The notes under the pieces were generated by a model. That model worked only from the letters and a program-made list of their open reading frames with translations, had not been told where the DNA came from and ran no database searches. Shown in pieces: positions 3,357 through 47,486 of a stretch of 64,000 nt of DNA. The stretch is from NCBI RefSeq assembly GCF_902170305.1, contig NZ_CABHWW010000028.1, positions 186,001 to 250,000 of the forward strand. The letters run 5' to 3'. Numbering within the stretch: position 1 is the stretch's first letter; each line of letters opens with the position of its first letter. Position numbers and translations under genes: made by a program. Source of the stretch: Yersinia alsatica (GTDB lineage Bacteria > Pseudomonadota > Gammaproteobacteria > Enterobacterales > Enterobacteriaceae).

Positions 3357-4676
3357 TTAGGCAAAACTGTAGCGCTCAGAATGGTATTTCGACATCGGAA
3401 CCCCGATCTCAGCCAGCGCTTTTTCAATCGCATCCATCATGATATTTGGGCCACAGATAAAATACTCATGACTGGCATAAGGAGGAGGCAAGTAGCGCTT
3501 GAAGACCTCGGCATTAATGAACCCTTTTTCGCCAGTCCAGTCTGATGATGGATTGGATAATACGTGCACCACTTTCAAATTCAGCCGTGATTGTAAGGCT
3601 TCTAATTCCTCACGAAACGTAATTGATTCCCAATCTTTACTGCCATAAAGCAGTAGGGCGGGGCGCTGGTCGCCGCTGTCCGCGAGGGTACGCAACATAC
3701 TCATCATCGGGGTTATCCCAACCCCGCCGGCGACTAAAACATGCATATCTGCCGGATTACCCAAGGTGAACGCGCCATAAGGGCCATCCAGATAGACTCG
3801 TTGACCGACCGGTATTTTAGCAATATTACGGGTGAAATCGCCCAAGTTGCGGATCGACATTTCGACGCGCCCATCACTTACTGCCGCACTGGATGAGAAG
3901 GAAAAAGGATGCCCAGTAATGTTAAACGGGCCGCCCCAAACGGTCAGCCAGCCAAATTGACCCGGAGTAAAACGAAAGCCTGCATGGCCCTCAGGTGCCA
4001 TAACCAATGTGGTGGTGTCCCCGCGTTCTTCACGCACATCGACCACTCGATAAGGGCGGCGCAGAATAAAGAGCGGCTTGACGATCCGCACATAGAGCAG
4101 CAACCCAAACCAAAACAGAATCAGGCCAATCCACAGCGTTTTTTTCAGTGGATCGTCGAGGTAAAAGCCCCAACCAACCATATGAGCTATCCCGGCGATT
4201 ACTGCAACGACAGCCAGAATAATGTGAGATAAATGCCAGATTTCATAACGGATTTTCAATTGCACTCGCCACAATGCGGTAATGACTAAAGCAATCAGTG
4301 AATAGGTTGAGAGTGCTGCAAAACGGGCGCGCCATGGGGCTTCGAAGGAGTTGAGTAATGCCAGTAACTCAGGGCGAACAACAAACAGGATGATTGGATG
4401 CGCAATGACTAATCCAACGGCAATAAGCGAAATACGCCGATGGAAGTGATAAATAATATCTTCCCCCCACGGCTCGGTGACATAGCGAAAGCGCGCCGTC
4501 AGACCAAATTGTAGCCCCATGATTGCTAATCCAGCATAACCGAGAGCTATAGAAAGCTCAGTCCAGAAATCTCGGGCGGGGGGCAATGTACCGGTCAATA
4601 AAGCCAATAATGGGGCTAAAATAAAAAACAGGTATACCGCAATCCAAACAGTACTGCGCCAAGCATAAGTCGACAT
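3357..4676 (-). CDS. Ferric-reductase-like transmembrane flavoprotein (FRE/NOX-type oxidoreductase)
   Basis: 439 residues. The N-terminal half (about 1-210) has roughly six membrane helices with paired histidines suited to heme (YHFHRR, GLVIAHP, IWHLSHI, GIAHM), as in the ferric reductase transmembrane domain. The C-terminal half is a ferredoxin-NADP reductase-type module: an FAD motif (HPFSFSS), a GPYGAF loop, then the NAD(P) motif GGVGITPMMSML and the C-terminal CGPNIMMD. It should move electrons from NAD(P)H through FAD and heme across the inner membrane, to ferric iron or another acceptor. It stands alone apart from the 31-residue ORF directly downstream. The natural acceptor is unknown. 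Confidence 0.85.
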   Translation of the reverse strand: MSTYAWRSTVWIAVYLFFILAPLLALLTGTLPPARDFWTELSIALGYAGLAIMGLQFGLTARFRYVTEPWGEDIIYHFHRRISLIAVGLVIAHPIILFVVRPELLALLNSFEAPWRARFAALSTYSLIALVITALWRVQLKIRYEIWHLSHIILAVVAVIAGIAHMVGWGFYLDDPLKKTLWIGLILFWFGLLLYVRIVKPLFILRRPYRVVDVREERGDTTTLVMAPEGHAGFRFTPGQFGWLTVWGGPFNITGHPFSFSSSAAVSDGRVEMSIRNLGDFTRNIAKIPVGQRVYLDGPYGAFTLGNPADMHVLVAGGVGITPMMSMLRTLADSGDQRPALLLYGSKDWESITFREELEALQSRLNLKVVHVLSNPSSDWTGEKGFINAEVFKRYLPPPYASHEYFICGPNIMMDAIEKALAEIGVPMSKYHSERYSFA

Positions 4677-13867: not shown

Positions 13868-14899
13868 ATGGAAACTAATAAGACACTTACACCTGAAAGT
13901 GAAAAAGCTGCATTATTTTTAATGGATCAAGTCATGAGCTATACCTATCAAGCTGCGCTTCGGGCCGCCGCTCTTTTAGGGGTAGCCGACCATCTTTTAG
14001 ATAAACCAAAAACAGTGAAAGAACTTGCGCAAGAAATGGGTGTGGAAGAGCAACCTTTGCATCGGGTAATGCGGCTACTGGCGACACGAGATGTCTTTAA
14101 AGAGATTGGCGGGCAGAAATTTGAGCTGACTCCAGCGGCGGAGCTGCTATCTAAGTCCTCACCTCACTCACTGCGAGCGGCAGTATTGATGTTGACTGAT
14201 GAAACCTTCTGGCGTCCATTAGGAATCATTGCCGAAAGTGTTCACGGTCACTCGGCCTTTAAGAAAATATTCGGCACTTCTTTCTTCGAATACTGGTCAA
14301 AACCTGAAAATCACACGCCTGACAGAGATTTTCATGCTGGCATGTCTTCTATGTCCAATGTGGAAAATGCTTGTTTGGTACGCAGCTATGACTTCCCGAA
14401 AAATGCGACGGTGGTAGATGTGGCTGGGGGCATGGGGGGATTGCTGTTGAGAGTATTGCAAGCTAACCCGACCCTTCACGGTATTTTATTCGATCGCGAG
14501 CCGGTGGTGGCAAGAACCCGTCTGGGTGAACTGGGGGATGATTCGCGCTGGGAACTCCAGTCTGGTAGTTTCTTCGAGTCATGTCCGTCAGCCGATATTT
14601 ATATGCTGAAATATATCGTCCACGACTGGCCGGATGAAAAATCAGTTGAAATATTGAGCAACTGCCGTAAGGCAATGCGGCCTGACGGCAAGGTGCTGAT
14701 TATGGACACTATTATTCCGGAGAATAACCATCCACACTTCGGAAAAACCATGGATATTCTCATGTTAGCCAGTTTTGACGGTGGCAGAGAGCGTACCGAA
14801 ACTGAGCTAAAAGGACTGCTGGCCAAGGCTGATCTGAAAATTAACCGCATCATAGATACAGGCACTTACCTCTCGATCATTGAAGCTGTTGCGCGTTAA
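13868..14899 (+). CDS. SAM-dependent O-methyltransferase (COMT/Methyltransf_2 type)
   Basis: 343 residues. The N-terminal winged-helix dimerisation domain (about 15-105) carries LGVADHLLDKPKTVKELAQEM and LHRVMRLLATRDVF. The C-terminal Rossmann domain has the SAM motif VVDVAGGMGGLLLRVL and the YIVHDWPDEKSVEIL segment typical of this family, whose histidine is near the catalytic site. Relatives methylate hydroxyls of phenolics, quinones and polyketides. GAGG precedes the ATG. It is followed on the same strand by an outer-membrane MetA-type protein and a Tat-exported P450-like protein, suggesting modification of a small aromatic or lipid compound. The substrate is unknown. Confidence 0.85.
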   Translation: METNKTLTPESEKAALFLMDQVMSYTYQAALRAAALLGVADHLLDKPKTVKELAQEMGVEEQPLHRVMRLLATRDVFKEIGGQKFELTPAAELLSKSSPHSLRAAVLMLTDETFWRPLGIIAESVHGHSAFKKIFGTSFFEYWSKPENHTPDRDFHAGMSSMSNVENACLVRSYDFPKNATVVDVAGGMGGLLLRVLQANPTLHGILFDREPVVARTRLGELGDDSRWELQSGSFFESCPSADIYMLKYIVHDWPDEKSVEILSNCRKAMRPDGKVLIMDTIIPENNHPHFGKTMDILMLASFDGGRERTETELKGLLAKADLKINRIIDTGTYLSIIEAVAR

Positions 14900-14944: not shown

Positions 14945-15055
14945 TTCAATACGGCGATATTCTTCGCTAGAGGCATAATAAAAATGGGAATATTGAGGTT
15001 GTTGCTTGTTACATATTGATATTCCTGAGATAGAGTCTCCCACTTTTCTTTTAGT

Positions 15056-15104
15056 CAATGTTTAAGGCCATCACTGATCTTGTCAGTGATGGCCTTAAAC
15101 ATTG
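15056..15104. repeat. Perfect 22-base inverted repeat hairpin
   Basis: Arms 15056-15077 and 15083-15104 are exactly complementary over 22 bases around TCTTG. The left arm begins CAATGTTTAAGGCCATC. It is unusually long and perfect for a terminator and has no T-run on either side. It could be a factor-independent barrier between genes, an mRNA-stabilising or processing structure, or the remains of a mobile element end. Confidence 0.6.
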
Positions 15105-15242
15105 TGTTCGATAGAAAATAAAAAGTATTTTTGAGGGTTATTTATCATTGAGTTTTTTTATAATTATCTGGATGTAAGTATTTCAGAAATAGTATAAATG
15201 GCTTAATGTGTTATCAACTCTATTATAAAGAGAGTCTCCATT

Positions 15243-16145
15243 ATGTATCTTTCTCGCCGGTTCTACCCATTGCTTTATCTTACCGCCACTCTCTTTCCTA
15301 TCAATAGCTTTGCTGGGTCTGCTCGTGATTATCTTAATGCCCCAGTTGATTCATGGCTGGGGTTTTATAATGCGGGTTATTCATCTTCGGTGACTCCAGA
15401 AGATGGTATGGATATTACGTCTGATGTGAGAGCAAATGTATTATCTCAATCTTTTATGCTGACTCGTACGATGGATTATTGGGGGAGAACCGGGGGGCTT
15501 TCATTGGTTCTCCCTTACCGTTACGTTGAAACCCATTCTGATGACTTCCGGGCTTCTACTCGTGGCGTATCTGATATCGGCATGTTGTGGCAAATTAATT
15601 TGTTTGGCGGGCCGGCATTGAGTCGCGAGCAATTCCGCGCCTTTATTCCGGAAACCTTCTCCAGTTTTCATTTTTATCTTGGCACTCCATTGGGAGAATA
15701 TGATGCACACTCCGCTCTAAATCCCAGCTCAAATCGATGGGTTTTTTCGCCAACCCTGAACTATAGCTATACGCCAGATCAAGGCTGGACATGGCTTGAG
15801 ACTTATATTACGACGACCGTATTTACGGACAATGATAACTACCAGGTTGCTGGAGCCTCTAAACTTGCTCAGGATCCTCTGGTGGTAATTGAGGGGCATG
15901 CCAGTCGCAATATTACACCGCAAATATGGGTATCTTTCGATAGTTATTACAATGTTGGTGGTGAGACACGTATTGATGATGTTGCTCAAGATAATGCTGC
16001 TAATACCTTGAGGTTGGGGACCGGGATCGGCATCAGAGCCTGGAGCGGCGGTGACATTATTGTGAATTATGAACGTGTTGTTGCCAAGCCATCGCAGCAG
16101 CCTGAGTCCCAAACAATCAGGATGACGTTACGTCAATTTTGGTAA
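15243..16145 (+). CDS. MetA-pathway-type (phenol degradation/SphA family) outer membrane protein
   Basis: 300 residues with a signal peptide (basic start MYLSRR, hydrophobic run, cleavage near SFAGS). The mature part alternates polar and hydrophobic residues as in a beta-barrel, and ends with aromatic FW (LRQFW), the usual outer-membrane-protein C-terminus. The pattern matches the MetA-pathway phenol-degradation transporter family (early LNAPVDSWLGFYNAGYSSS, late GIGIRAWSGGDIIVNYERV). Such proteins are thought to pass hydrophobic compounds across the outer membrane. It lies between the O-methyltransferase and the periplasmic P450-like gene, so it may import the substrate or release the product. 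Confidence 0.75.
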   Translation: MYLSRRFYPLLYLTATLFPINSFAGSARDYLNAPVDSWLGFYNAGYSSSVTPEDGMDITSDVRANVLSQSFMLTRTMDYWGRTGGLSLVLPYRYVETHSDDFRASTRGVSDIGMLWQINLFGGPALSREQFRAFIPETFSSFHFYLGTPLGEYDAHSALNPSSNRWVFSPTLNYSYTPDQGWTWLETYITTTVFTDNDNYQVAGASKLAQDPLVVIEGHASRNITPQIWVSFDSYYNVGGETRIDDVAQDNAANTLRLGTGIGIRAWSGGDIIVNYERVVAKPSQQPESQTIRMTLRQFW

Positions 16146-16567
16146 CGAAAGTTGGGTTGATACTGAGTAACCACATTATTTTAGTGGAATATTGCGTCAT
16201 TTAATTAATGGCAATTAAAAGTATCGAGGAATTAATTAAAATTAGAATTTGAATTCAAAAGTAAAATAACTCTCATCGGGTATCTGTCTTAGGCGGAATA
16301 TTTAACTCTGGATGACTTTTAATTAGTGATTTTATAGAGTTAGTGTTTTTTATTTATTTTCCATGAGATTAATCTTGCCTTTTTATAAGTGAGGCAGGAT
16401 AAATAGTAAGAATGTTCCCAGTAAAATTTGTGACTCTTAAAATAATACAAGTGTGACTTTGATCGCTATATTCAGTGATGGAATAATAAGTATATTAACT
16501 TTGTTTATATATTCATTAAGAAAATCAATGGCTGGTATGTGTTATTTTCAATGTGAGGAGTGCAGAT
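16146..16567. other. AT-rich intergenic region upstream of the P450-like gene
   Basis: About 420 bases without a convincing gene. The right end carries the GAGGAG ribosome binding site of the gene at 16568. The length suggests the P450-like gene has its own promoter. Confidence 0.55.
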
Positions 16568-18154
16568 ATGGAAAGACGTACATTCTTGAAAGGAGCTGCG
16601 GCGCTAGGGCTGGCAGCAGGGACATCCAGTGCGGGAGCAGTAGCTGCATCAGCTCATGCAGCAACAGGGGAGCATGCATTACCTGATAAAATTGCCGCTG
16701 CTTTAGCTCGTTTTCGTGAAACTATTCCCGCCAATTTTGACCAAACTTATGTTGAGAATGCCGTCGTTCCTTTCTTCCTCACCAGTTTCTATGAGGGCGA
16801 AAGGCCGATGTTACCCATGATCGACCTGAATTTTACGAAAGAGAATGCGCTGCCTTATGATCTTTGGGGCTTGATTTATAAAGACTGGAAGCCCACGCCC
16901 TCTGAAGGAGTCACTGTTTTTTTACAGGGCTTGGAAGAACGTGGTGAGAATAACCTCCGCAAACGTATCTATTTCTCTGCTGTCACTCCGGATCTGTATC
17001 GCCCAATGTATGGGGATAAAGTAGTCGCATTTTTCGACCAACTGATGGAACCTCAGTTTGCCAATAAACCCTTCATGCGGCACTACTTAGATTATTATTT
17101 TGATATTTATTGGGATTTGCATTTGGGTGTCAAAGGCGATGCTATCCCGAAACAGGTCAGAGAAATTGGTGAGTCTTTCAATACCGTATTAGCCTACCGT
17201 GACCCACTGCAACCGATTGTTTATGAAAACTATATGACAGTACGTAAACAACTCGATTTTCTTAAGCAATGGATTGATGAGCGTGTCGATGACATCAATA
17301 ATGGGCGCACTGCCAATCCTGAAAAAACCATGGCCTGGTATTGGTTGAAAAATGCCGGTAACGGTGAACACTTTAGTAAGAAAGATATTGTGTTTGAATG
17401 CTTCCACAACTTTGTTGCCTTCAGTCAGTGGGGGAATACCTTATTCGGTATCATGTCCCGCTTGAGTGAAAATGAAGGGGACCCGGCTGTCCGTGAAGCA
17501 TTTAAAAAGACCATGAGCAGTGATTTTGATAATGCTAATGGGGCACCTTATACGCCGCTGGAATTATTCGTTATGGAATTATTCCGCACTATCTCACCTA
17601 ATGGCGGCAGTATTTCTGCGGTGGAGGATGCCCGTACTTCGGCCTATGGAGAGTCACCTCATAATCGTTTTGGTTTGCCTTTTGAACGTCATAGCTACAT
17701 TAGCACCCCCCATACCAGTACCAGTTTCAGCCCGGTTCACTGGAAAGACCCTAAAGAATTTGATCCTAACCGTTATCGTGATGTGCCAACCAGCGCCGAA
17801 ATAACCGAAGAGAAATGCAAACAAATTGGTCTGGCTCGCTGCCCATTTGATATCACTTCACTGGAGGTTAAAGATGGTCGTAATGTGGCGCTAACTAACA
17901 GTGGTTTCGGTACGGTGTTTGGCGTGGTGGATGGTAAAGCAAAACCGGTATGTGATTATGCGGGCTTTGCTCCATTCGGGTTCAGCTATCGTCGCTGCCC
18001 AGGTGAGCAACTGACGATTCAGGTGTTTGAAGATTTTCTGCGTAAAGTATGGCGCGATAAAATTGTGTTCAATAAATTGCAGTTGGCCAAGCCAGGTAGG
18101 GTGCCAATTGGCCCGAATGCCGTTATTGATGACAATATTGGTTTTAGCCGTTAA
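16568..18154 (+). CDS. Cytochrome P450-like protein with Tat signal peptide
   Basis: 528 residues from the ATG at 16568 (GAGGAG 8 bases upstream). The N-terminus is a twin-arginine signal (ERRTFLK at 2-8, hydrophobic stretch, AxA cleavage near residue 31). The rest has three P450 hallmarks: ExxR in the K-helix (ELFR, 337-340), a meander motif EFDPNRY, and the heme loop FGFSYRRCPG with Cys477. Two points deviate. The fourth heme-loop position is Ser where the family pattern has Gly/Asp. The I-helix region (277-291, FVAFSQWGNT) lacks the acid-alcohol pair used for oxygen activation. That fits a peroxygenase or hydroperoxide-converting P450 (compare CYP152, CYP74) needing no redox partner, as a periplasmic location would require. 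Function is inference. Confidence 0.8.
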   Translation: MERRTFLKGAAALGLAAGTSSAGAVAASAHAATGEHALPDKIAAALARFRETIPANFDQTYVENAVVPFFLTSFYEGERPMLPMIDLNFTKENALPYDLWGLIYKDWKPTPSEGVTVFLQGLEERGENNLRKRIYFSAVTPDLYRPMYGDKVVAFFDQLMEPQFANKPFMRHYLDYYFDIYWDLHLGVKGDAIPKQVREIGESFNTVLAYRDPLQPIVYENYMTVRKQLDFLKQWIDERVDDINNGRTANPEKTMAWYWLKNAGNGEHFSKKDIVFECFHNFVAFSQWGNTLFGIMSRLSENEGDPAVREAFKKTMSSDFDNANGAPYTPLELFVMELFRTISPNGGSISAVEDARTSAYGESPHNRFGLPFERHSYISTPHTSTSFSPVHWKDPKEFDPNRYRDVPTSAEITEEKCKQIGLARCPFDITSLEVKDGRNVALTNSGFGTVFGVVDGKAKPVCDYAGFAPFGFSYRRCPGEQLTIQVFEDFLRKVWRDKIVFNKLQLAKPGRVPIGPNAVIDDNIGFSR

Positions 18155-18170
18155 ACGTCGCACTTTTTCA

Positions 18171-18194
18171 AGCCCGCATATGCGGGCTTTTTTA
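18171..18194 (+). terminator. Rho-independent terminator after the P450-like gene
   Basis: AGCCCGCA-TA-TGCGGGCT hairpin at 18171-18188 followed by a run of T to 18194, 16 bases after the stop codon. Confidence 0.9.
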
Positions 18195-18577
18195 TAGGGT
18201 GAGTGACCGTTGCCAGTCATACAAAAAACTTACCACAGCCGTAATGTGGCTATATTTTGCAGCACAGTTGAAACTCATCCTCTGCATTTCCTACAGCCTG
18301 TAGGAAAACTCACAATTTCTCCATATTACGGCGATAAACCCACCCATCTCGATTAAATAATATTTACTCTATAAAATACAATGAGTTGAATTTAATTAAT
18401 CAATATATTAAGTCTGAATAATGTGTTTTAGCTGTTACCCATCCTACAGATTAGCCAGAAGGTCGGTGATGTAATCTGTTCATCGCATGCATAGATCGGT
18501 ATTATCCATCACCAGTAATGCAAATCATTAGCGTTAGCACTCAAGGATATTTACATCCCTACTTTTCAGGAGAGAAA
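18195..18577. other. Intergenic region upstream of the siderophore transporter
   Basis: About 380 bases without a gene. It includes the Fur-box-like site at 18514-18532 and a strong ribosome binding site (CAGGAGAG) before 18578. Confidence 0.6.
18514..18532. promoter_or_regulatory. Fur-box-like site
   Basis: AGTAATGCAAATCATTAGC matches the 19-base Fur consensus (GATAATGATAATCATTATC) at 14 positions, with the core TAATG...CATTA fully kept. It lies about 46 bases upstream of the binding-protein start codon, so iron repression by Fur is likely. Confidence 0.6.
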
Positions 18578-19531
18578 ATGCGATTACGTTTGGCTTTATT
18601 TTCATCATTACTGGCAGCCACTGTTGCCATTACCGGATGTGATGATTCATCTAAGACCTCAGAAGAAACATCAAAAATAAGTATTGAACATGCGCAGGGG
18701 ACCACTCAGGTTCCACTTAATCCGCAAAAAGTCATCATACTGAACCCATCGGTACTGGATACCGCCGACGCTCTGCATATTAAAGTTGCTGGTGTCCCAC
18801 AGACCAGCACTCATCTTCCCGAATTCTTATCCAAATACAGTGGCTCAGAGTTCTTGAATGCTGGCACCTTATTTGAACCGGATTACGAGGCACTGAGTCA
18901 GGCTAAACCTGACCTGATCATTGCCGGTGGTCGTGCTCAAGATGCCTATGACAAACTTAGCGCTATCGCGCCCACTATCTCGCTTGATGTAGATACTCAG
19001 CATTTCACACAGAGTTTGACTCATCGCACTGAGCAATTGGCATCGATATTTGGCAAAGAAGAAGAGGCGAAAACTCTGCTGAGTAATTTCACCTCGCAGA
19101 TTAATGCCATAAAGCAAAAATCGGCCAACGCAGGTTCAGCGATGGTATTGATGGTCAGTGGCGGGAAAATGTCGGCTTACACTCCCGGTTCTCGTTTTGG
19201 TTTTATTTTTGACGAGTTAGGATTTACGCCAGCAGCGACGTTCACCGAGACGGGTCGTCATGGGAATGTGGTCACCTCTGAATTTATCCTTAATGCTAAT
19301 CCTGAGTGGCTATTTGTACTTGATCGCGATAACGCGATTGGCCGCGCAGAAGGTCAATCTGCACAGCAGGTGCTGGATAATCCACTGATTCGTAAAACCA
19401 AAGCCTGGCAAAATAATCACATTATTTATCTCGATTCTGCCTCGCTCTATATTGCCGGTGGTGTACAGAGTTATACGCAGCTGATGGATAAAATTAGCAC
19501 TGTGTTGGATAAACAAGCGACAGCGCAGTAA
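18578..19531 (+). CDS. Ferric-siderophore ABC transporter substrate-binding lipoprotein (FatB/CeuE-like)
   Basis: 317 residues from the ATG at 18578 (GGAGAG upstream). Lipoprotein signal peptide with lipobox ITGC. The mature protein is a class III periplasmic binding protein: early VPLNPQKVIILNP, then LDTADALHIKVAGVPQT, KPDLIIAGGRAQDAYDKL and late NPEWLFVLDRDNAIG. These features are those of the FatB/CeuE/YclQ catecholate- or hydroxamate-siderophore group. It is the first gene of a four-gene operon with two permeases and an ATPase. The siderophore is not known, and no outer-membrane receptor is adjacent. Confidence 0.88.
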   Translation: MRLRLALFSSLLAATVAITGCDDSSKTSEETSKISIEHAQGTTQVPLNPQKVIILNPSVLDTADALHIKVAGVPQTSTHLPEFLSKYSGSEFLNAGTLFEPDYEALSQAKPDLIIAGGRAQDAYDKLSAIAPTISLDVDTQHFTQSLTHRTEQLASIFGKEEEAKTLLSNFTSQINAIKQKSANAGSAMVLMVSGGKMSAYTPGSRFGFIFDELGFTPAATFTETGRHGNVVTSEFILNANPEWLFVLDRDNAIGRAEGQSAQQVLDNPLIRKTKAWQNNHIIYLDSASLYIAGGVQSYTQLMDKISTVLDKQATAQ

Positions 19532-19540
19532 TTTTCACTA

Positions 19541-20500
19541 ATGAAAAATCTTAGCTTTATTGCAGGCCTGGTGGTTTTACTGGGCCTGATGATATGCAGC
19601 TTATTTATCGGTGCCGGGAATGTCACTTTGGCTGATGTTTGGTCTGACCCGGATATGCGCGATATTTTTGTGATAAGCCGTGTACCGCGAACATTGGCAT
19701 TAGTCTTGGCGGGCAGCGCGATGAGTGTTGCCGGCCTTATCATGCAGATGCTGACTCAAAACCGTTTTGTCGAACCTTCAATTGCTGGCACCACCCAGTC
19801 AGCCAGCCTTGGTTTATTGCTGATCATGGTGTTTTACCCGGCAGCGCCAGTTATGGTCAAAATGCTGGTGGCGACGGTATTTGCCATGGGCGGCACCGCG
19901 CTTTTCATGCTGTTATTGGCACGAATGAGAATGAAGTCGGCACTCATGGTTCCATTGACCGGCATTATGCTGGGAGCAGTATTTAGTGCCGTAACGACTT
20001 TTCTGGCTATGGAATTTGATCTTCTGCAATCACTGGGCAGTTGGGAATCGGGCGATTTCTCGGGTGTATTACAGGGGCGTTATGAGCTGCTGTGGATAGT
20101 TGGAGCACTGACGCTGATTGCCTGCCTGATTGCAGACCGCTTTACCGTCGCTGGAATGGGGCGAGATTTCTCGGTCAATGTCGGGCTTAATTATCAACGC
20201 GTTATGCTGATGGGAATGTCCATTATTGCCATCATTAGCGGCGTGGTGGTGGTAGTGATTGGTGTGCTGCCTTTCTTGGGGTTGATTGTGCCTAATATTG
20301 TCAGCATGGCGATGGGCGACAATTTGCGCCGCACCATTCCTTGGGTCGCGCTATGTGGCGGAGCACTGGTCGTGTTATGCGACATTATTGGTCGGTTAAT
20401 CAGCTATCCGTTTGAAATACCGGCCAGCGTTATTCTGGGCGCAATTGGTGCATTCGTTTTCCTATTATTAATTGTTAGGACAAAACGCCATGCAGGCTAA
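19541..20500 (+). CDS. Iron-siderophore ABC permease (FecCD family), first subunit
   Basis: 319 residues with about nine membrane helices. FecCD signatures: RVPRTLALVLAGSAMSVAGLIMQMLTQN near residue 50, and late GVLPFLGLIVPNIVSMAMGDN, the ATPase-coupling loop. It corresponds to FatD/CeuB in gene order. It starts 9 bases after the binding-protein stop and overlaps the second permease by 11 bases. Confidence 0.9.
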   Translation: MKNLSFIAGLVVLLGLMICSLFIGAGNVTLADVWSDPDMRDIFVISRVPRTLALVLAGSAMSVAGLIMQMLTQNRFVEPSIAGTTQSASLGLLLIMVFYPAAPVMVKMLVATVFAMGGTALFMLLLARMRMKSALMVPLTGIMLGAVFSAVTTFLAMEFDLLQSLGSWESGDFSGVLQGRYELLWIVGALTLIACLIADRFTVAGMGRDFSVNVGLNYQRVMLMGMSIIAIISGVVVVVIGVLPFLGLIVPNIVSMAMGDNLRRTIPWVALCGGALVVLCDIIGRLISYPFEIPASVILGAIGAFVFLLLIVRTKRHAG

Positions 20501-21497
20501 TGAATATTCTCCAACAGGCTCTCTCCGGCACGAGAAAAGCAAAACGCTAAGTCTACCGGCAAAGCGGTTATTGTTATTAAGCTTCATTGCCCTTAGTGCG
20601 ATTGTTCTCTTCATGACCATTAATCTCAGGGGCAATATCCACTATGTGCTGGTGCATCGTGGCCTTATTTTAGCCACGATGTTATTGGTTGCATTTGCTG
20701 CTGGCATTGCCACCGTCTTATTCCAAACCGTCACCAATAACCGTATTTTGACCCCCTCGGTCATGGGGCTTGAAGCACTATTTATTCTGATACAAACCCT
20801 ACTGATATTTTTTGTTGATGCCGATGGGTTCAGAGTATTAGGTATTACCGGTAAGTTTCTCTGTGAGTCAGCATTGTTATTGCTGTTCTCGGCATTTCTC
20901 TACCGCTGGTTACTGATGGGCGTGGGCATCAATCTGCACAAGGTGCTATTGGTTTGGTTGGTGTGCGGCACCTTATTCCGTAGTTTATCTAGCCTGATGC
21001 AGCGCCTACTCTCTCCGGGGGAGTTTGCCATATTACAGGGGAGGGTATTTGCTACCTTTACGCGAGCCGCGCCTGAAATTATTGCTCTCTCCACTGGGAT
21101 AATCGTTATTGTGGGTATTGCTGTTTGGCGTATGCGCCATTGCCTCGATATTATCGCGCTGGGTAGAAATACCGCGGTTAATCTGGGTGTTGCCTATCAG
21201 AAAAAGATAACCATTATTTTGCTGCTTGTTTCATTGCTGGTGGCTATCTCTACTGCACTTGTCGGGCCGTTAACATTTTTAGGTCTGCTTATCGCTAATC
21301 TGGCTTATCCCATTGTGGGCTCATTCCGACATCAATATTTGTTGCCCGGCGTTTTTCTGCTGGGAGCTATTACGTTGGTTGGTGGGCAATTAATTCTCGA
21401 ACGTTTACTGAACATGTCGGGAACGCTGTCAGTGGTTATTGAGTTTGTTGGCGGCGCGCTGTTTATTTATCTTTTAATAAAAAAGGCTCCGGTGTGA
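20490..21497 (+). CDS. Iron-siderophore ABC permease (FecCD family), second subunit
   Basis: 335 residues from the ATG at 20490, which has AGGA upstream inside the end of the previous gene; a TTG at 20472 is less likely. Multi-helix FecCD permease with RGLILATMLLVAFAAGIATVLFQ and the coupling segment LVGPLTFLGLLIANLAYP. It resembles the FatC/CeuC half of the heterodimeric channel. It overlaps the ATPase gene by 4 bases. Confidence 0.88.
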   Translation: MQANEYSPTGSLRHEKSKTLSLPAKRLLLLSFIALSAIVLFMTINLRGNIHYVLVHRGLILATMLLVAFAAGIATVLFQTVTNNRILTPSVMGLEALFILIQTLLIFFVDADGFRVLGITGKFLCESALLLLFSAFLYRWLLMGVGINLHKVLLVWLVCGTLFRSLSSLMQRLLSPGEFAILQGRVFATFTRAAPEIIALSTGIIVIVGIAVWRMRHCLDIIALGRNTAVNLGVAYQKKITIILLLVSLLVAISTALVGPLTFLGLLIANLAYPIVGSFRHQYLLPGVFLLGAITLVGGQLILERLLNMSGTLSVVIEFVGGALFIYLLIKKAPV

Positions 21498-22252
21498 TTG
21501 AAATAACTGATATTAATAAAAAATACCAGGATACTTTGGTACTCGATAATATAAATGAGCATATTCCTTCAGGTGGAATTACCTCAATTATTGGGCCGAA
21601 TGGTGCCGGAAAGTCTACGTTATTGTCGATTATGAGCCGTTTACTCACTCCCGACCTCGGGAGTGTGAGGTTTAATGGGCTGGATGTGGCGAAAACTTCC
21701 GGGGATAAATTGGCCACTATCCTGTCGGTTTTACGCCAGGAAAATCATTTCACCAGCCGGCTGACTGTCGCGGATTTGGTAGGTTTTGGGCGCTATCCTT
21801 ATTCAAAAGGCAGGCTCAATGCCAATGATCGCCAACATATTGATGCGGCCATGGAATTCCTTAATTTGATGCCGCTGAAAGATAGGTATCTTGATGAACT
21901 CTCTGGCGGGCAGCGGCAACGTGCTTATGTTGCCATGGTGCTGTGTCAGGATACGAAATATATCCTGCTGGATGAGCCATTAAATAATCTGGATATGAAG
22001 CACTGTGTCGCGATGATGAAACAATTGCGGCGCGCAGCAGATGAACTGAACAAAACCATCATATTGGTTATTCACGATATCAACTTCGCTTCTGCGTATT
22101 CCGACCATATTATTGCGATGAAAGACGGTGCGGTTATTTATCGCGGGGCACCAGAAAAAATAATGCAGCCGGATATTCTGGAAGAGATTTTTGATCTAAA
22201 AATAAGAATAGAAAAAGTGCAAGATCAGCATATTGCGATTTACTACCGCTGA
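21494..22252 (+). CDS. Iron-siderophore ABC transporter ATPase
   Basis: 252 residues. Walker A GPNGAGKSTLL, Q-loop in VLRQENHF, signature LSGGQRQRAYV, Walker B ILLDEPLNNLD and the switch histidine in VIHDIN. These are the FepC/FatE-type ATPase features. The start is a GTG at 21494 overlapping the TGA of the permease gene, so translation is coupled. It powers uptake of the ferric siderophore delivered by the lipoprotein at 18578. Confidence 0.92.
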   Translation: MIEITDINKKYQDTLVLDNINEHIPSGGITSIIGPNGAGKSTLLSIMSRLLTPDLGSVRFNGLDVAKTSGDKLATILSVLRQENHFTSRLTVADLVGFGRYPYSKGRLNANDRQHIDAAMEFLNLMPLKDRYLDELSGGQRQRAYVAMVLCQDTKYILLDEPLNNLDMKHCVAMMKQLRRAADELNKTIILVIHDINFASAYSDHIIAMKDGAVIYRGAPEKIMQPDILEEIFDLKIRIEKVQDQHIAIYYR

Positions 22253-40977: not shown

Positions 40978-43680
40978 ATGAATCTTTTATCCGAACTAAC
41001 TGGAGCAACGCTTAACCGCTACAGCCTGATTATTCCGTCCTGCTTTTCTCCGCTGGATGTTGAGGACTTTAATGGGCTTGAGCAAATAAGTGTTTTGTAT
41101 CATTACACTATCCAATTTACCACTCTTCATCCCGATCTCACCGCTGAGTTGTTTTTGAATAAACCAGCCACATTGAATATGGGTATAGGGGATTTGCTCA
41201 GCCCGGTGACGGGAAAAGTGGTACACGGTGTAATTACACATTTTAGGCGTATATCAGGTTCACGTGATCAGGTTAAATACGAGATTATTGTAGAACCCTT
41301 TCTAGTCCTGCTAAACAAACAATTCCGTACACACCGTTTCTTTGTTAATAAATCGGTACCTGAAGTGGTCGAACAAATACTTCAGGAACATGGTCTGAAA
41401 GACTGGGAATATGAATTTGCTCTGAAACAGAGTTACCCAAAACGTGAGCAGATAAACCAGTATCAGGAAAGCGACCTAAAATTCATTGAGCGATTGCTCT
41501 CGGAGATGGGGATATTTTACTTCTTCACCTTGCAACCGGACACCCAGACCGAAGTGATTCATTTTGCTGATAAGCAGAGTGCCTATGAGTTTGGTAAAAC
41601 TCTGCCACTGAACAGCCCGTCAGGCATGAGTGATAGCGGCGTACAGTCAGTCTGGGGACTGAGTGTACGGCATAGCGTAGTGCAGGCCAGCGTGACAACC
41701 AAAGATTACAACTACCGTGAAGCGCAGAAAGTATTGCAGTCTACCAGAGTAGACATGACGCGCGGCGATGGTGAAGGCACAACCTATGGCGAAGTGTATC
41801 ATTACAAACCTCGCCATCTGGATACCGGCGATAAAGTAGATCCAACCGCGGAAACTGCTAACTTCCTCGCTCGTCTTGACCATGAACGTTTTTTATCAGC
41901 ACAAACACTAATCACCGGCCTTAGCACCGATCCAACATTACATCCTGCTCAAGTACTGACGGTAACTGATACATCGATCCCGTCTACATTACCGGAACTG
42001 CTGTCGCAACCGATGGTCGTGGTCCGCACCGGATTCAGTGCCAGTCGTAAAGATGCACTGAAAGTGACAATCGCAGCAGTACCCTACAGTGAAACCCTGT
42101 GCTGGCGTCCGGAATTACTTCCACGTCCGAAAGTCAGTGGCACCATGATGGCACGCGTGACCAGCGCCAAGTCGAATGATATCTATGCCTGGCAGGATAC
42201 CTCCGGTTTGTATCGGGTGAAATTTGATGCGGATCAGGACGATAAAGTACAGGGTCAGGAGAGTATGCCGGTGCGACTCGCCAAACCTTACGGTGGTGAT
42301 GTGTATGGCATTCACTTCCCACTGGTACAAGGCACCGAGGTAGCGATAGCCTTCCATGACGGTGACCCAGACCGCCCCTATATCGCCCATGCCCTGCACG
42401 ACTCGCGTCATACCGACCATGTAACCGAAAAAAATAACACCCGCAACGTGATCCGCACCCCTGCTTTCAACAAGCTGCGCATGGAAGACAAACGCGGCGA
42501 AGAGCACATCAAGCTCAGCACCGAATACGGCGGCAAAACCCAGTTGAACCTCGGGCATAACGTGGATGCCCAACGAGTTCTCCGCGGTGAGGGGGCCGAG
42601 CTGCGAACCGATGACTGGGTTAGCATCCGTGGTGGGAAAGGGGTGTTTATCAGTGCGGATAAACAGCCGTCTGCTGGGGGAGAGATGCTGGATATGAGCG
42701 AGGCGATAAGCCAACTGGAGACGGCATTGTCGCTGGCGAAAAGCCTATCGCAAGCAGTGCAAACCGCGCAAACACATGAAGGAGATATTGCCAGTCAGCA
42801 GCAGTTAAACAAATCGCTGAACGAACTGAGAGCGGCAGGGATATTACTGCATGCTCCGGAAGGTATAGGGATGGTGAGCCCAAAAGCGGTACGGATAGCA
42901 TCGGGTGGTGAAAGTATTGGTGTGATGTCAGGGCACAACACTGATATCAGTGCGGGTAAGTCGTTCACGGTGGCGGCCAGTGATGCGGTGAGCTTGTTTG
43001 CTCAAGGACAGGGCATGAAACTGTTTGCGGGCAAGGGCAAGATAGAAGTACAGGCGCAGAGTGATGCGATTTTAGCAACGGCGCAGAAAGATATTGAAAT
43101 CCGTAGTGCAGAAGGGAAAGTAGAGATATCAGCGAATAGTGAGTTAGTGCTGACTTGTGGTGGAGCATATATCAAACTCAGCGGTGGGAATATTGAGCTA
43201 GGTTGTCCGGGTAATATTTTGTTGAAGTCGGCCAATGTACAGAAGATGGGTGCGGCGAGTTTGAATATTGCCCCTAAAACATTCCCTCGTGGTTTTGGGG
43301 GGAGTTATGCCCTTACTGATGAAAAAACCGGGGAAGCTTTACCCTTTACTCGCTATCAGATAACAACTAGCGCAGGGGATGTTTACTCAGGAACGACTGA
43401 CATTGAAGGGAAAACAGCCAAAATTTTTACCACCACGCCAATGCCATTGACCATCGGTTCTCCAGATGAATCGCTGGATGAACAATTAAGAGCGATTGAT
43501 GAGTCAACGGGAGAACCACTGGTGGAATATGCTTACTATGCAAAATCACAAGATGGACAGGTTTACTCGGGATTTACCGATGCTCAAGGACTGACTGAAC
43601 GAATGATAACTCAGGGCAAATCGGAGATAACCGTATCTTGGGGCGATGAAGCCCTTGCTCGGATAGAGAAGGGTGCATAA
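40978..43680 (+). CDS. vgrG: VgrG (TssI) spike protein with transthyretin-like C-terminal tail
   Basis: 900 residues. Residues about 1-560 are the gp27/gp5-like core (YTIQFTTLHPDLTAELFLNK at the start, PVRLAKPYGGDVYGIHFPLVQGTEV near 430). About 560-770 is the DUF2345 beta-helix (ISAGKSFTVAASDAVSLFAQ, NSELVLTCGGAYIKLS). The C-terminal 130 residues carry two similar segments, each with VYSG-T/F-TD-x-x-G, of transthyretin-like type. Such tails in other VgrGs bind effectors. AGGAAA precedes the ATG. The amidase gene starts at the base after the stop. Confidence 0.93.
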   Translation: MNLLSELTGATLNRYSLIIPSCFSPLDVEDFNGLEQISVLYHYTIQFTTLHPDLTAELFLNKPATLNMGIGDLLSPVTGKVVHGVITHFRRISGSRDQVKYEIIVEPFLVLLNKQFRTHRFFVNKSVPEVVEQILQEHGLKDWEYEFALKQSYPKREQINQYQESDLKFIERLLSEMGIFYFFTLQPDTQTEVIHFADKQSAYEFGKTLPLNSPSGMSDSGVQSVWGLSVRHSVVQASVTTKDYNYREAQKVLQSTRVDMTRGDGEGTTYGEVYHYKPRHLDTGDKVDPTAETANFLARLDHERFLSAQTLITGLSTDPTLHPAQVLTVTDTSIPSTLPELLSQPMVVVRTGFSASRKDALKVTIAAVPYSETLCWRPELLPRPKVSGTMMARVTSAKSNDIYAWQDTSGLYRVKFDADQDDKVQGQESMPVRLAKPYGGDVYGIHFPLVQGTEVAIAFHDGDPDRPYIAHALHDSRHTDHVTEKNNTRNVIRTPAFNKLRMEDKRGEEHIKLSTEYGGKTQLNLGHNVDAQRVLRGEGAELRTDDWVSIRGGKGVFISADKQPSAGGEMLDMSEAISQLETALSLAKSLSQAVQTAQTHEGDIASQQQLNKSLNELRAAGILLHAPEGIGMVSPKAVRIASGGESIGVMSGHNTDISAGKSFTVAASDAVSLFAQGQGMKLFAGKGKIEVQAQSDAILATAQKDIEIRSAEGKVEISANSELVLTCGGAYIKLSGGNIELGCPGNILLKSANVQKMGAASLNIAPKTFPRGFGGSYALTDEKTGEALPFTRYQITTSAGDVYSGTTDIEGKTAKIFTTTPMPLTIGSPDESLDEQLRAIDESTGEPLVEYAYYAKSQDGQVYSGFTDAQGLTERMITQGKSEITVSWGDEALARIEKGA

Positions 43681-44286
43681 ATGAATCAGAAAACAGTCGT
43701 GAAATCCAATAATAAAACGGGTTCTGTTCAGGATGTCAAAATTAAATCTATCTACTTTGATGAGTTATGGTCGGCTTACCCATCAAGTACGATCAAACAT
43801 ATTGATCCCAAGTCGAAAGACGATATATTTTCAGATCACTGTGCAATAAATGTCAGTCAAGCTTTGTATCAATGTGGCATATTGATGAAAAGTTTTAAAG
43901 GAGCCAGATGTTGGAATTGCCCTACACCGGATAGTACAGGAAAAGGAATTCATGCTATTCGTGCCCAGGAATTGAGTGATTATCTCAAAAACCAGAAAAC
44001 ACTTCCTTTTGCTGGGGGTAAAAAGCCACTGGAATTGACGGGAAAAACCTATGAAGATGCTGTGTCTGATAAAACAGGACTCATTTTTTTCCAGGATTAT
44101 TGGTTACGCTCTGGTGAGAAATCCCCTACCGGTGATCATATCGATTTATGGAAAAACAATAAATTAGCCAGTCTGGGATGGTTATCTACTTGGGCAAGAA
44201 GAACCTTTCCTCAGGCATCTGAAAGTTACCTGTCAATGTCCGACCTAAGGAAATCAACAAAAGTCTTGTTTTGGGAAATTCTATGA
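43681..44286 (+). CDS. Tae4-type peptidoglycan amidase effector
   Basis: 201 residues. Tae4 landmarks: FDELWSAYP at the start, catalytic Cys54 in DHCAINVSQAL, HAIRAQELSDYL, GLIFFQDYW, and the catalytic His153/Asp155 in GDHIDLW. The family cleaves the peptide stems of peptidoglycan in the periplasm of a target cell. It has a 20-residue N-terminal extension compared with the core family. It starts directly after vgrG (GAAGGG before the ATG) and overlaps the next gene by 4 bases, the usual effector-immunity layout. Confidence 0.88.
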   Translation: MNQKTVVKSNNKTGSVQDVKIKSIYFDELWSAYPSSTIKHIDPKSKDDIFSDHCAINVSQALYQCGILMKSFKGARCWNCPTPDSTGKGIHAIRAQELSDYLKNQKTLPFAGGKKPLELTGKTYEDAVSDKTGLIFFQDYWLRSGEKSPTGDHIDLWKNNKLASLGWLSTWARRTFPQASESYLSMSDLRKSTKVLFWEIL

Positions 44287-44537
44287 AAAGAAAACTTTTG
44301 CTTTTATCCCTTTATATTTTACTTTCTTTAACTTTATTTTTTATCTTCATTATCACTGGTTTTTCATCATATCTTTATCATGTCTATGAAGGGGTTATTC
44401 TACAAGGACACTATGAGGGGGAAACCAAAGCTGCGTTTTATATGGGCTTTTTAATCAAATTGTTGCTGCCGGGCTGTTTTTTATTAGTTGGTGTTTTTTA
44501 TAGCACTTATTTATGGAAAAAGAAAAGAAACCCGTAA
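44283..44537 (+). CDS. Two-helix membrane protein partnered with Tae4-type amidase
   Basis: 84 residues from the ATG that overlaps the amidase stop (ATGA). Helix 1 at about 3-27 (KLLLLSLYILLSLTLFFIF), an exposed loop of about 25 residues (YHVYEGVILQGHYEGETKAA), helix 2 (FLIKLLLPGCFLLVGVF), basic tail KKKRNP. Known Tai4 immunity proteins are soluble periplasmic proteins of about 100-120 residues, so this would be an unusual immunity type. A helper for release or location is the alternative. Its 3' end was duplicated along with the lipase start (see repeats). Confidence 0.55.
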   Translation: MKRKLLLLSLYILLSLTLFFIFIITGFSSYLYHVYEGVILQGHYEGETKAAFYMGFLIKLLLPGCFLLVGVFYSTYLWKKKRNP

Positions 44538-44870
44538 AGGGATTTCTTTGTTAATAAGACATAACTCAGGACTAATAAAAGAGGTGGGCAGGTGAGTAAT
44601 AAAGAACATAATACTTCAATAAAAGAAGAAAGTAAGACCGTATCACTCAGCGCAAAAAACCAAACAAGTTGGGTTGAATTCCAATTACTGGATGAGATGA
44701 ATAATCCAGTCGCTAATATGCCGTATCGGGCCATTAATGATGCGACCAGAAGTGGTCATGTGAAAGAGTATACAGGCAGTAGCGATGCTAGTGGCATTAT
44801 ACGTATTGAGGGTTTATACCATCTTGACCTGACACTGTTTATTGAGGCCCAACCTCTCGCAGATGAAATG
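44478..44870 (+). repeat. Duplicated segment, copy 1 (membrane gene 3' end + lipase N-terminus)
   Basis: About 390 bases nearly identical to 48681-49072. It covers the end of the small membrane gene, the 54-base spacer with its AAGAGGT ribosome site and the first ~93 codons of the lipase. Identity stops abruptly just after the codons for LADEME. Confidence 0.85.
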
Positions 44871-46508
44871 GAGACTCGATCGCTGCGTGTCGGTAGGGAA
44901 GAAAAATATTCAACGGTTAAAAAATTGGCAGAACAAGAAGGGTATGAGTACCAGTACATCACTATTGGGAAGTTGTGCGATAAATTACCGGCGATTACCC
45001 CTAATTGGGAAGATAAAAAGAAACCGCCAGCATATCATTTCCCGGATACTCGGTTTACCGGTTTGACGGTAAAAAAATTGAATTGCCGCCATGTTTTGGA
45101 AATTTGTCCTTTCCGGGCATGGTCTTTAGTTTTGCATCATATACCCGACTACTCGTTGGTGAATGCTTATAATCTGGTTTTGATGTCAATATTATCTTAT
45201 GCAGATTACCATACGAATGGTGATGGGCAAGCAACGGGGTCTATAACACATTTTTTTAAACAGCAAATGCTAGAACTAGCTCGCGTGCCGTATCAAGTAA
45301 ATGATAAAAAATTTCAGCCTATTGTTAAAGATGTGCCTTTTCACCAGCGTTATACTGATGTTGAATTTATAGATTCGAGTCAGGGTGCTGATGCAAAAAA
45401 GGATACACAGTTATTTTTCGCAGCTAATAGTGTTGAGGTCATTGTAGCTTGGCGTGGAACAGCAAGTCTCAAGGACGTTGTTTCGGATATTACTTATAAA
45501 CCTATTAATCTAACTTGTGATATAAAAATACCTTGTAGTGGTATTGTTAGTAATGGATTAGTACATCAGGGATTTTTAGATGCGTTTCAGGTTATAAATG
45601 GCAGCGATAATACTAAAATTAAAGAGAATATTGAACGATTAGTCGAACTTTTGGCTGGTAGGAGGGTATATATTTGTGGGCATAGTTTAGGTGGTGCGCT
45701 GGCCTTAATACACGCAGCTAAACTCATTGATTACAAACCTATATTATATACTTATGGAATGCCTCGTACTTTTACTTTGAGTGCTATGGGGGAATTAAAG
45801 GGGATACCTCACTATAGGCATATTAATGAGAATGATGCAGTTCCCTCGGTACCTCCAGAGCGAGAATTAGATAATCATTTCTATAAATTATGGGGGCCAT
45901 TAGGATATGTTTTTGGTTATAGTTGGTCTGTTGTCAAGACTTTAGTCCCGATTGGGAGTGAGGTTTTTTGTCATCATGGTGAAGTTGTGCACTTTTTCAA
46001 AGCAGAGTCAGTTTTGGAGTGGTTGGAAGAACGAAGTCCACGTGCTAAAATTAAAATTAGAAAGCGCCTTCCAGAGAAGGCAAAATTATTTTTGGTTCCT
46101 TGCTTAAGCTCACATAGTGATGAAAATGCGAAAAATAATCAGCAAGAATTCATTCAAGAAATAGATAAAGAAAGTAAAGATAAATTATTTCCAAAACATG
46201 GAAATCCAGAGCTTAAAAATGCACTAAACGGAGGTGACCATCCATCCGGAAAGTATGCTGAATATATTGGTGATAGATTGCTGGAGTTATATGATACAAC
46301 CAATGATGGTGTTTATAAAAAAGAACAGGATGTTTTTATTTTGCAAATGGAGAAGTATAAAAATGATATACCTCAATCTGAGTATAACAGAAATAAGTCT
46401 TTCTTGGCCGTTGATAAATTACTCGTTACGACTTTGGATATCACCAAGTCTTTACCAGAAGGTGATATTTCCATGCAACGTTATTGTTTGAAAAAGGATG
46501 GTCAATGA
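44592..46508 (+). CDS. T6SS class-3 lipase effector (Tle-type), copy 1
   Basis: 638 residues from GTG 44592 (GAGGTGG upstream). Residues about 25-95 form a beta-rich domain (VEFQLLDEMNNPVANMPYRA, SDASGIIRIEGL) resembling the transthyretin-like tail of VgrG. A lipase_3 domain follows: IVAWRGTASLKD, then the nucleophile elbow GHSLGGA with Ser365, an Asp in NENDAVPSVPPE and a His in HHGEVVHFF. The layout fits phospholipase effectors of the GxSxG type (Tle2/TseL-like). It acts on membranes of the target cell. It overlaps the immunity gene by 4 bases. Confidence 0.85.
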   Translation: MSNKEHNTSIKEESKTVSLSAKNQTSWVEFQLLDEMNNPVANMPYRAINDATRSGHVKEYTGSSDASGIIRIEGLYHLDLTLFIEAQPLADEMETRSLRVGREEKYSTVKKLAEQEGYEYQYITIGKLCDKLPAITPNWEDKKKPPAYHFPDTRFTGLTVKKLNCRHVLEICPFRAWSLVLHHIPDYSLVNAYNLVLMSILSYADYHTNGDGQATGSITHFFKQQMLELARVPYQVNDKKFQPIVKDVPFHQRYTDVEFIDSSQGADAKKDTQLFFAANSVEVIVAWRGTASLKDVVSDITYKPINLTCDIKIPCSGIVSNGLVHQGFLDAFQVINGSDNTKIKENIERLVELLAGRRVYICGHSLGGALALIHAAKLIDYKPILYTYGMPRTFTLSAMGELKGIPHYRHINENDAVPSVPPERELDNHFYKLWGPLGYVFGYSWSVVKTLVPIGSEVFCHHGEVVHFFKAESVLEWLEERSPRAKIKIRKRLPEKAKLFLVPCLSSHSDENAKNNQQEFIQEIDKESKDKLFPKHGNPELKNALNGGDHPSGKYAEYIGDRLLELYDTTNDGVYKKEQDVFILQMEKYKNDIPQSEYNRNKSFLAVDKLLVTTLDITKSLPEGDISMQRYCLKKDGQ

Positions 46509-47269
46509 GATTCAATAACATATATATCTTGTTTTTATCTTTACTATGTACTTCGGGTTGTGTGGCAAAAAATAATTCAATTTCACCACCGAGTGATAAT
46601 CAATGGGTAGATGTTGAAATTAAGGCACCAAACAATACCGAGGCTTTTCCATTAGTTGCATTTTACACTTCTGATGAATGCAAAAAAGAACGATATAACG
46701 TAGATATGAAGTTGTATCAACTAAAAGGTACGCAGGCTCGTAATATTAATATGGAGATTGATAAAACCTCAGGTAACTATCGAAGTCAAATTCCAATGGA
46801 TGGTGGTGGACAATGTAAATGGCGATTAAGTAAAGTGACATTAGGTATCCAATATTCCAGAACAGAGCATCTCATTAATAATGGTGGAGGCCAGATAGGA
46901 ACAGCCGTTGGTATTGAAGTTGCATTTGATGATGAAGGGGCGAAAAATGGTGACTATATACTTACTACAAATCCTTTATCACTAACGCCGACCTATTATC
47001 CAATAATTACCCAAAAGTATCTTCCTAGCGAAATTACTCAACTGTCCTTGCTAGGGAAAGAGGCTTTTGAATCTTATAGAATTAATATTATTAATAATGA
47101 GAATGTAAACATAAAATTATTTCCCATCTTGGATGAGTCTAAAATTGTTAAAAAAATCGGGCCAAAGAACAGAGGTGTGGGTAATTTCTTTCACATAGAA
47201 TATCCCGACGGAAGTGTCACATCTAATGGTGAAGTAACTCCTGATTTTGAGAAGTTGAGTTCAATGTAA
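46505..47269 (+). CDS. Lipoprotein immunity protein for lipase copy 1
   Basis: 254 residues from the ATG overlapping the lipase stop (AAGGA upstream). Signal peptide with lipobox-like CTSGC, so anchored in the cell envelope, the right place to block a periplasmic phospholipase. Family features shared with two more genes here: SPPSDNQWVDVEIKAPNNT, DGGGQCKWRLS, IGTAVGIEVAFDD, PTYYPI, IEYPDGSVTSNGEVTPDFEK. No named family recalled. Function inferred from gene pairing and location. Confidence 0.75.
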   Translation: MRFNNIYILFLSLLCTSGCVAKNNSISPPSDNQWVDVEIKAPNNTEAFPLVAFYTSDECKKERYNVDMKLYQLKGTQARNINMEIDKTSGNYRSQIPMDGGGQCKWRLSKVTLGIQYSRTEHLINNGGGQIGTAVGIEVAFDDEGAKNGDYILTTNPLSLTPTYYPIITQKYLPSEITQLSLLGKEAFESYRINIINNENVNIKLFPILDESKIVKKIGPKNRGVGNFFHIEYPDGSVTSNGEVTPDFEKLSSM

Positions 47270-47316
47270 TTTACTTCTCACTTATTGTTTATTGAAAGAC
47301 CTGTTTTTGTCTCTAG

Positions 47317-47412
47317 AGGATTTGCTGCTGCAGGCATTAACAGTAACCAAATTTATGAGTGGAAGAACAGAAGCGTTCGAACGTTTTGCGGCTTATGGCT
47401 AAGAGGATGCTG
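47317..47412 (+). other. Possible remnant of an IS orfA (transposase HTH)
   Basis: In one frame this stretch reads GFAAAGINSNQIYEWKNR and then continues to a stop. The AGINxNQIxEWK pattern is like the helix-turn-helix of IS3/IS66-type OrfA. It sits in the 190-base gap between the two immunity paralogues. Too short for certainty. Confidence 0.3.
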
Positions 47413-47486
47413 AATAGTATGAGTCGATTAAAATTAAGTAGCTTGGGCATAGCTTTAATGATGAAATTTAAAAAATTGCATCTTTT

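Follow-up and report, generated by a model that had tools for sequence, protein, structure and literature searches.

A family of cytochromes P450 with predicted Tat signals, found in Yersinia and other bacteria and partly paired with an outer-membrane channel gene

P450s are generally taken to be cytoplasmic or to face the cytoplasm, since they need partners that are fed by NAD(P)H. The window analysed here, a stretch of 64,000 nucleotides from the 5.0 Mb genome of Yersinia alsatica, carries a P450-like gene that begins with a putative twin-arginine (Tat) signal, and raises the question of whether a P450 could be exported and what could then serve as its oxidant. A conserved, mobile and exported P450 family would break the rule of cytoplasmic P450s. 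Such a family would also be a natural source of bacterial P450s located outside the cytoplasm, which would be of interest for biocatalysis, and would extend the periplasmic handling of incoming hydrophobic compounds by a heme-thiolate enzyme. Among the literature matches listed, for which most subscription journals were outside the scope, none reported a P450 that is periplasmic or exported by Tat in bacteria.

A rare P450 family

The gene occupies positions 16568..18154 on the + strand and encodes 528 amino acids, the N-terminal letters of the translation being MERRTFLKGAAALGLAAG. The mechanical open reading frame opens at a GTG 15 bases before the ATG at 16568, and GAGGAG precedes the ATG. 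The original prediction, that this frame encodes a Tat signal followed by the ExxR, meander and Cys heme motifs of P450s, was confirmed. When the window protein was compared alone with the Pfam p450 model the match fell under the curated cut-off (E 0.0062), and a search of the whole window genome with this model gave no match at E<=1; annotation based on the model would therefore miss this P450.

A scan for relatives, using one genome per species, gave 89 sequences, the best 80 of which represent 79 loci at 44-99% identity. The nearest named copy, in Yersinia frederiksenii ATCC 33641, is 99% identical, and relatives from the same genus group alongside it. The family's hosts are rhizobia and other alphaproteobacteria, Burkholderiales, Enterobacterales, mycobacteria and other actinobacteria, together with cyanobacteria, Ktedonobacter, Nannocystis and some MAG contigs labelled as other phyla. 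Members are rare: the window's own genome aside, none was found in 397 sampled Pseudomonadota at E<=1e-40, and 3 of 72,556 plasmid records carried one. In Serratia fonticola and Paraburkholderia ginsengisoli, where the gene is on plasmids, the product is named 'twin-arginine translocation signal domain-containing protein', and the Calothrix member is annotated as 'hypothetical protein'. No close sister family was found in the comparisons made.

We aligned 61 members, leaving out 19 of the 80 sequences. All 61 match Pfam p450 at E<=0.01 (best 2.8e-8), and an hhalign comparison of the family with 30 ordinary P450s gave a probability of 98.6 and an E value of 1.1e-15; the match spans 297 columns and stops in the region of the heme loop. 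The family shares with the P450 superfamily (PF00067) an ExxR motif, a meander and an FxxGxRxCxG loop with its Cys. Invariant in 61/61 members are E337 and R340 of the ExxR motif (E337-L-F-R340, 17576..17587, + strand), F398, P400, R402 and Y403 of the meander, and F470, R475, C477 and G479 of the heme-binding loop (F470-GFSYRRCP-G479, including Cys477, 17975..18004, + strand). The family differs from ordinary P450s in its Tat signal, in its lack of an acid-alcohol pair, and in some 50 additional residues ahead of the heme loop. Judged by sequence, the window protein is a P450 of a rare, unnamed family.

Within the heme loop, 54 of the 61 members have Gly at position 473 and 7, the window protein among them, have Ser; positions 472 and 478 also vary. 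The Ser is a change within a subclade only. The original prediction had read it as a clue to peroxide chemistry; as it is found in only 7/61 members, it provides no argument for such chemistry.

The P450 is present in 7 of 25 Yersinia genomes, five of which have a form close to that of the window and two a homologue at 73-74% identity. In four comparisons within the genus dN/dS was 0.013-0.018, and a fifth was saturated. The P450 in Yersinia is under strong purifying selection.

The Tat signal and predicted export

The putative Tat signal region, MERRTFLKGAAALGLAAGTSSAGAVAASAHAAT, extends over 16568..16666 (+ strand) and was assigned from Tat models, a sequence pattern and conservation. The N-terminus MERRTFLKGAAALGLAAGTSSAGAVAASAHA is a modest match to the models: Pfam TAT_signal gave an E value of 0.0012 and 19.1 bits, below its cut-off of 22.7, and NCBIfam TIGR01409 gave 18.2 bits, above its cut-off of 16.7. 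The region is conserved among the Yersinia copies of the P450.

Across the family, 73 loci with a readable N-terminus were scored with a strict Tat pattern. A signal was found in 41, eight of these with a lipobox cysteine; as background, the pattern matched 45 of the 1075 ORFs in the neighbourhood and 18 among 8200 shuffled N-termini. Six more loci, which escape the pattern because an acidic or basic residue interrupts the hydrophobic stretch, were assigned by eye, to give a total of 47/73. An earlier pattern that allowed no acidic residue before RR was discarded; it matched 34 of the 73 loci, at least two of them falsely (in L029 the match lies outside its signal, and L073 has no signal).

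The distribution of the signal was then compared with a quick unrooted tree, built after removal of the first 80 alignment columns and supported by SH-aLRT values without bootstrap. One group of 38 rows (SH-aLRT 100) has a Tat signal in 37, five of them labelled by eye, the only row without one being Mycobacterium neglectum (L062). Among the remaining 23 rows a signal was seen only in L070, which has a long branch; the cyanobacterial and most other members outside the Tat group have none. Presence and absence of the signal required three changes on the tree, compared with a mean of 18.6 after shuffling. Lipobox Tat signals were found in eight mycobacterial or other actinobacterial rows, and are confined to the actinobacterial branch of the 38-row group. 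Conservation of the Tat signal in this group, and its conversion there into a lipoprotein signal, make a good case for an extracytoplasmic location, and from these sequences we strongly infer that the P450 is exported. The finding of an exported P450 stands in a broader form than originally proposed, as what appears to be a conserved exported group with a partner channel in part of it.

The channel gene and the two-gene cassette

At 15243..16145, on the + strand, lies a partner gene for a 300-amino-acid putative outer-membrane channel of the Phenol_MetA_deg / COG4313 type. The protein matched Pfam Phenol_MetA_deg at E 3.2e-12, over the cut-off, and the solved channel PDB 4rl8 at E 2.2e-5. COG4313 proteins have been implicated in taking up hydrophobic molecules, sphingosine and trichlorophenol among them (PMC4493636).

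A channel gene adjoins the P450 gene in 9 of the 79 loci (L010, L011, L018, L020, L021, L022, L032, L037 and, as a partial frame, L067), a count in which L021 and L022, with identical P450 N-termini, may be one genome, and for which many of the 79 loci are too short to show such a neighbour. Clustering of neighbouring proteins gave eight loci with a channel, the window included, and a profile search of all frames added L032 (Bordetella petrii) and the partial L067. The pair recurs in alphaproteobacterial loci, in further Yersinia, and on plasmids in Serratia fonticola and in Paraburkholderia ginsengisoli, the last being the same species as L011. The channel gene comes before the P450 gene in Yersinia, follows it in Serratia, Paraburkholderia, L037 and B. 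petrii L032, and is convergent with it in L018, L020, L021, L022 and L067. When 23 chosen host genomes were searched, a channel orthologue was found in seven at 59-70% identity, with one further match at 30%. Six of these seven orthologues lie beside the P450 gene and one, in Martelella alba, lies outside the neighbourhood examined.

At loci with 2 kb of sequence on both sides, the channel gene adjoins 6/33 P450 genes of the Tat type, 0/8 of the Tat-lipoprotein type and 0/20 without a signal. Exactly 5 of the 25 Yersinia genomes have the channel, and these are the five with the close form of the P450; in one of them (G023) a stop codon interrupts the channel gene. The two Yersinia with the 73-74% homologue have no channel gene. 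Both the 6/33 fraction of Tat-type loci and this absence weigh against the periplasmic model favoured below.

The extent of the inserted DNA was seen by comparison with a congener (G014), which matches both flanks of the cassette and has about 133 bp in place of the window's 3.4 kb. This places the accessory stretch at 14961..18361. Only the two genes (15226-18155) are common to the window and genome G018 within the stretch compared, and in G018 they lie far from the FecB gene. Genome G017 retains only decayed pieces of the P450, directly before a FecB-type gene (L096 8296-8552), a sign of loss. As read from these comparisons, the mobile unit is a two-gene cassette of channel and P450, inserted in Yersinia. 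The original prediction mentioned neither the channel gene nor the inserted cassette of two genes, and it was silent on the roughly 50 additional residues ahead of the heme loop.

The cassette is flanked by an O-methyltransferase gene (Methyltransf_2 with a dimerisation domain by Pfam, 13868-14899) and by genes for a FecB/FecCD/FecE-type ABC importer (18518..22252, + strand). An operon with the upstream O-methyltransferase was considered and rejected, since the two are separated by a perfect inverted repeat (15056-15104; 22 nt with a 5-nt loop), probably the terminator of the O-methyltransferase gene, and since G014 keeps the methyltransferase without the cassette. On the Serratia fonticola plasmid (L089 12001-17946) the cassette is followed by a gene with an S-type pyocin domain and a bacteriocin immunity gene, and several insertion sequences lie around. 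Rhizobial-type members of the family (L026, L033, L044, L049, L051, L077 and L081) are found near AraC-family regulators, hinting at substrate-controlled expression.

The pairing of a COG4313 channel with a P450 that has a Tat signal resembles an arrangement in Pseudomonas aeruginosa. According to PMC11893366, the COG4313 channel SphA and the Tat-secreted periplasmic oxidoreductase SphC belong to the same sphingosine response; SphC helps to convert sphingosine to a harmless product and is thought to be served by the cytochrome SphB. In the cassette the P450 would stand in SphC's place, and differs from it in that SphC is predicted to be an FMN-linked oxidoreductase and has a cytochrome c partner. 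The same paper reports that an sphA mutant had no growth-inhibition phenotype, which weighs against the SphA precedent.

Active site, oxidant and alternative explanations

The central I-helix stretch (residues 273-295; 17384..17452, + strand) was located by alignment. H280, N281, A284, Q287, W288 and G289 are invariant in 61/61 members, and no acidic residue (D/E) occurs at positions 278-295 in any of the 61. In the hhalign match, A284-F285 stood opposite the Ala-Gly in the AGxET motif of ordinary P450s, with a gap of five residues after it; if the match were extended ungapped, Q287-W288 would occupy the places of the acid and the alcohol. The I-helix of the 61 members thus lacks the acid-alcohol pair of O2-dependent monooxygenases.

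The spacing between meander Arg402 and heme Cys477 is also distinctive. It is 74-76 residues in 61/61 family members, compared with 15-25 in 22 of the 23 measurable P450s in a sample of 30 ordinary ones (seven gave no measure, and one of the 23 gave 68). By this count residues 403-476 (17774..17995, + strand), from the meander to the heme loop, include an extra stretch of some 50 residues that is specific to the family. In known P450s the segment ahead of the heme loop lies on the proximal face, the docking side for redox partners, and the extra residues may hinder such docking. A disulfide in the extra stretch (C425 in 60/61, C462 in 56/61) was considered as a mark of export and rejected, as signal-less cyanobacterial rows keep both cysteines.

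Members without a signal share both the acid-less I-helix signature and the extra stretch. The original claim that the acid-alcohol pair is missing held in 61/61 members; as non-exported relatives lack the pair equally, its loss is no adaptation to the periplasm. Reductase independence, if true, would be a trait of the family, and may have been the precondition that allowed export.

We compared the family with the CYP152 fatty-acid peroxygenases. CYP152A1 is likewise without the acid-alcohol pair, and the Arg-Pro of the CYP152 I-helix has a role. The heme loop of the family is of the RCxGExxTIxV kind found in CYP152 enzymes, for example CYP152A1 (PDB 1izo); unlike CYP152, the family has no Arg-Pro in its I-helix and is predicted to be exported. 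Several CYP152 entries were among the best weak PDB profile matches, a list in which chance matches to unrelated proteins appear at E 0.02-0.05, so that weak values singly mean little. CYP152A1 singly ranked 3rd of 39 by hhalign score. A set of seven CYP152 members scored 86.6, compared with 87.8-107.4 for eight random seven-member sets of ordinary P450s, which are more diverse than the CYP152 set and so somewhat favoured. As the CYP152 set did not beat the random sets, membership of CYP152 was rejected. In the comparisons made, the family was no closer to CYP152, to prostacyclin synthase (PGIS) or to the C-terminal fragment of allene oxide synthase (AOS) than to ordinary P450s.

Because the periplasm is without NAD(P)H and the I-helix without the O2-activating acid-alcohol pair, H2O2 or an organic hydroperoxide would most likely be the oxidant. 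We lean, by a little, towards a reductase-free periplasmic P450 that uses peroxide or hydroperoxide and acts on an incoming hydrophobic compound. The divergent heme-thiolate P450 would fold with its heme in the cytoplasm and be carried in folded form to the periplasm by Tat, the mycobacterial form being anchored on the outer face as a lipoprotein. A hydrophobic compound would enter through the COG4313-type channel encoded beside the P450. The P450 would then oxidise or rearrange this compound with H2O2 or an organic hydroperoxide, as a peroxygenase or as a hydroperoxide isomerase or dehydratase. The host would probably benefit by detoxifying an environmental lipid or phenolic, or by taking the first step in its use, and one may speculate that a flavocytochrome, where present, could supply peroxide derived from superoxide. 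Such chemistry is plausible; weighing against it are the sequence comparisons, in which CYP152, the AOS fragment and PGIS showed no more affinity than ordinary P450s did, and the occurrence of lipoxygenase, a maker of lipid hydroperoxides, in only 3/20 genomes or records examined and not in the window's own genome.

It is unlikely that the protein is instead a Tat-exported P450 monooxygenase that uses O2 and draws its electrons, through or at the membrane, from a c-type cytochrome, a transmembrane flavocytochrome or a carrier that is linked to quinol. SphC and SphB, as described in PMC11893366, would be a precedent for such a supply. A gene for a ferric-reductase-like transmembrane flavocytochrome is present in the window at 3357-4676, about 10.6 kb from the channel gene, and flavocytochrome genes occur in 10/25 Yersinia genomes, 5/7 with the P450 and 5/18 without. 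Such a gene lies near the P450 in only 2/79 loci, adjoining the channel gene in L010 and preceding the P450 by one or two ORFs in Mycolicibacterium L048, where the protein is 44% identical to that of Yersinia. In several Yersinia it is close to the FecB gene, and in G018 it remains at the FecB locus with the cassette elsewhere. The flavocytochrome is tied to the FecB locus, not to the cassette, and was rejected as a cassette partner. Among the families listed (25 of 50 and 25 of 103) for the nearest-neighbour proteins, sets of 66 and 74 that make 140, no ferredoxin, P450 reductase or lipoxygenase recurred. Use of O2 is further opposed by the lack of a central I-helix acid in 61/61 members and by the extra stretch, which lies on the usual docking side. 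The same flavocytochrome could, moreover, yield superoxide and from it H2O2, and so serve a peroxide-using P450.

A still less likely explanation is a hydroperoxide isomerase or dehydratase of the AOS or hydroperoxide-lyase kind, acting only on lipid hydroperoxides. In PMC10813956, P450s of the CYP74 clan are described as reductase-free, with an extra nine-residue motif in the heme domain. The family resembles CYP74 in the F..WG of the I-helix, its AFSQWG corresponding to CFNTWGG of AOS (PDB 2rcm). The position of the AOS Asn is Ser in 60/61 members, however, in an alignment made by eye. The Cys loop of the family is of ordinary form, the nine-residue motif of CYP74 (as given in PMC10813956) was not seen in it, and the extra stretch lies upstream. 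Of AOS, only the C-terminal fragment was compared; it ranked 37th of 39 by hhalign score, and neither AOS nor PGIS was among the best 60 of 63 PDB matches at E<=10. In favour of this explanation, one Yersinia genome with the P450, the sole one of the 25, has a lipoxygenase-family gene (G001:C1:76594-77919), though no channel gene; across genomes or records the lipoxygenase count of 3/20 speaks against it. The CYP74 or oxylipin reading was disfavoured: the I-helix resemblance is there, but neither the profile comparison with the AOS fragment nor the heme loop supports it.

We consider it improbable that the protein is an exported heme- or ligand-binding protein that has lost P450 chemistry, for example one that feeds the adjacent FecBCDE-type importer. 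Motifs can persist in non-enzymes, and in the window the P450 gene stands directly before this ferric-chelate-type importer. The heme-pocket motif residues are nevertheless invariant and dN/dS is 0.013-0.018. The flanking gene for the FecB-type substrate-binding protein is present in 22/25 Yersinia genomes, so that the importer is nearly core and the cassette an insertion, placed elsewhere in G018; a functional link was rejected, the two being neighbours through the insertion site. Most improbable of all is an ordinary cytoplasmic P450 with an inactive Tat-like N-terminus, for which speak the existence of non-exported relatives and a window signal below the Pfam cut-off. Against it stand a group in which 37 of the 38 rows keep the signal, eight of them combining it with a lipobox, and the NCBIfam Tat model, which passes its own cut-off.

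The reading of a reductase-free, peroxide-using periplasmic P450 can be extended, tentatively and with confidence slightly short of even, to the family. Its members would then form an unrecognised family of extracytoplasmic P450s, exported by Tat ready-folded or, in mycobacteria, anchored at the surface as Tat lipoproteins, reductase-free and fed by peroxide or hydroperoxide, partly paired with an outer-membrane channel for hydrophobic molecules, and spread between bacteria as a two-gene cassette. Fungal unspecific peroxygenases are secreted heme-thiolate enzymes fed by H2O2, and are unrelated in fold and kingdom to the bacterial P450s considered here. If the proposal is true, the family would be a bacterial counterpart of these secreted peroxygenases on a true P450 fold.

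Elsewhere in the window, positions 40978-51443 form a type VI secretion stretch, with genes for a VgrG-like protein, a Tae4-type amidase and two class-3 lipase-domain proteins. Behind each of the two class-3 lipase-domain genes lies one that matches no Pfam family at E<=1e-5, and these may be immunity genes. The GC content is 0.36-0.37 at 44-52 kb of the window.
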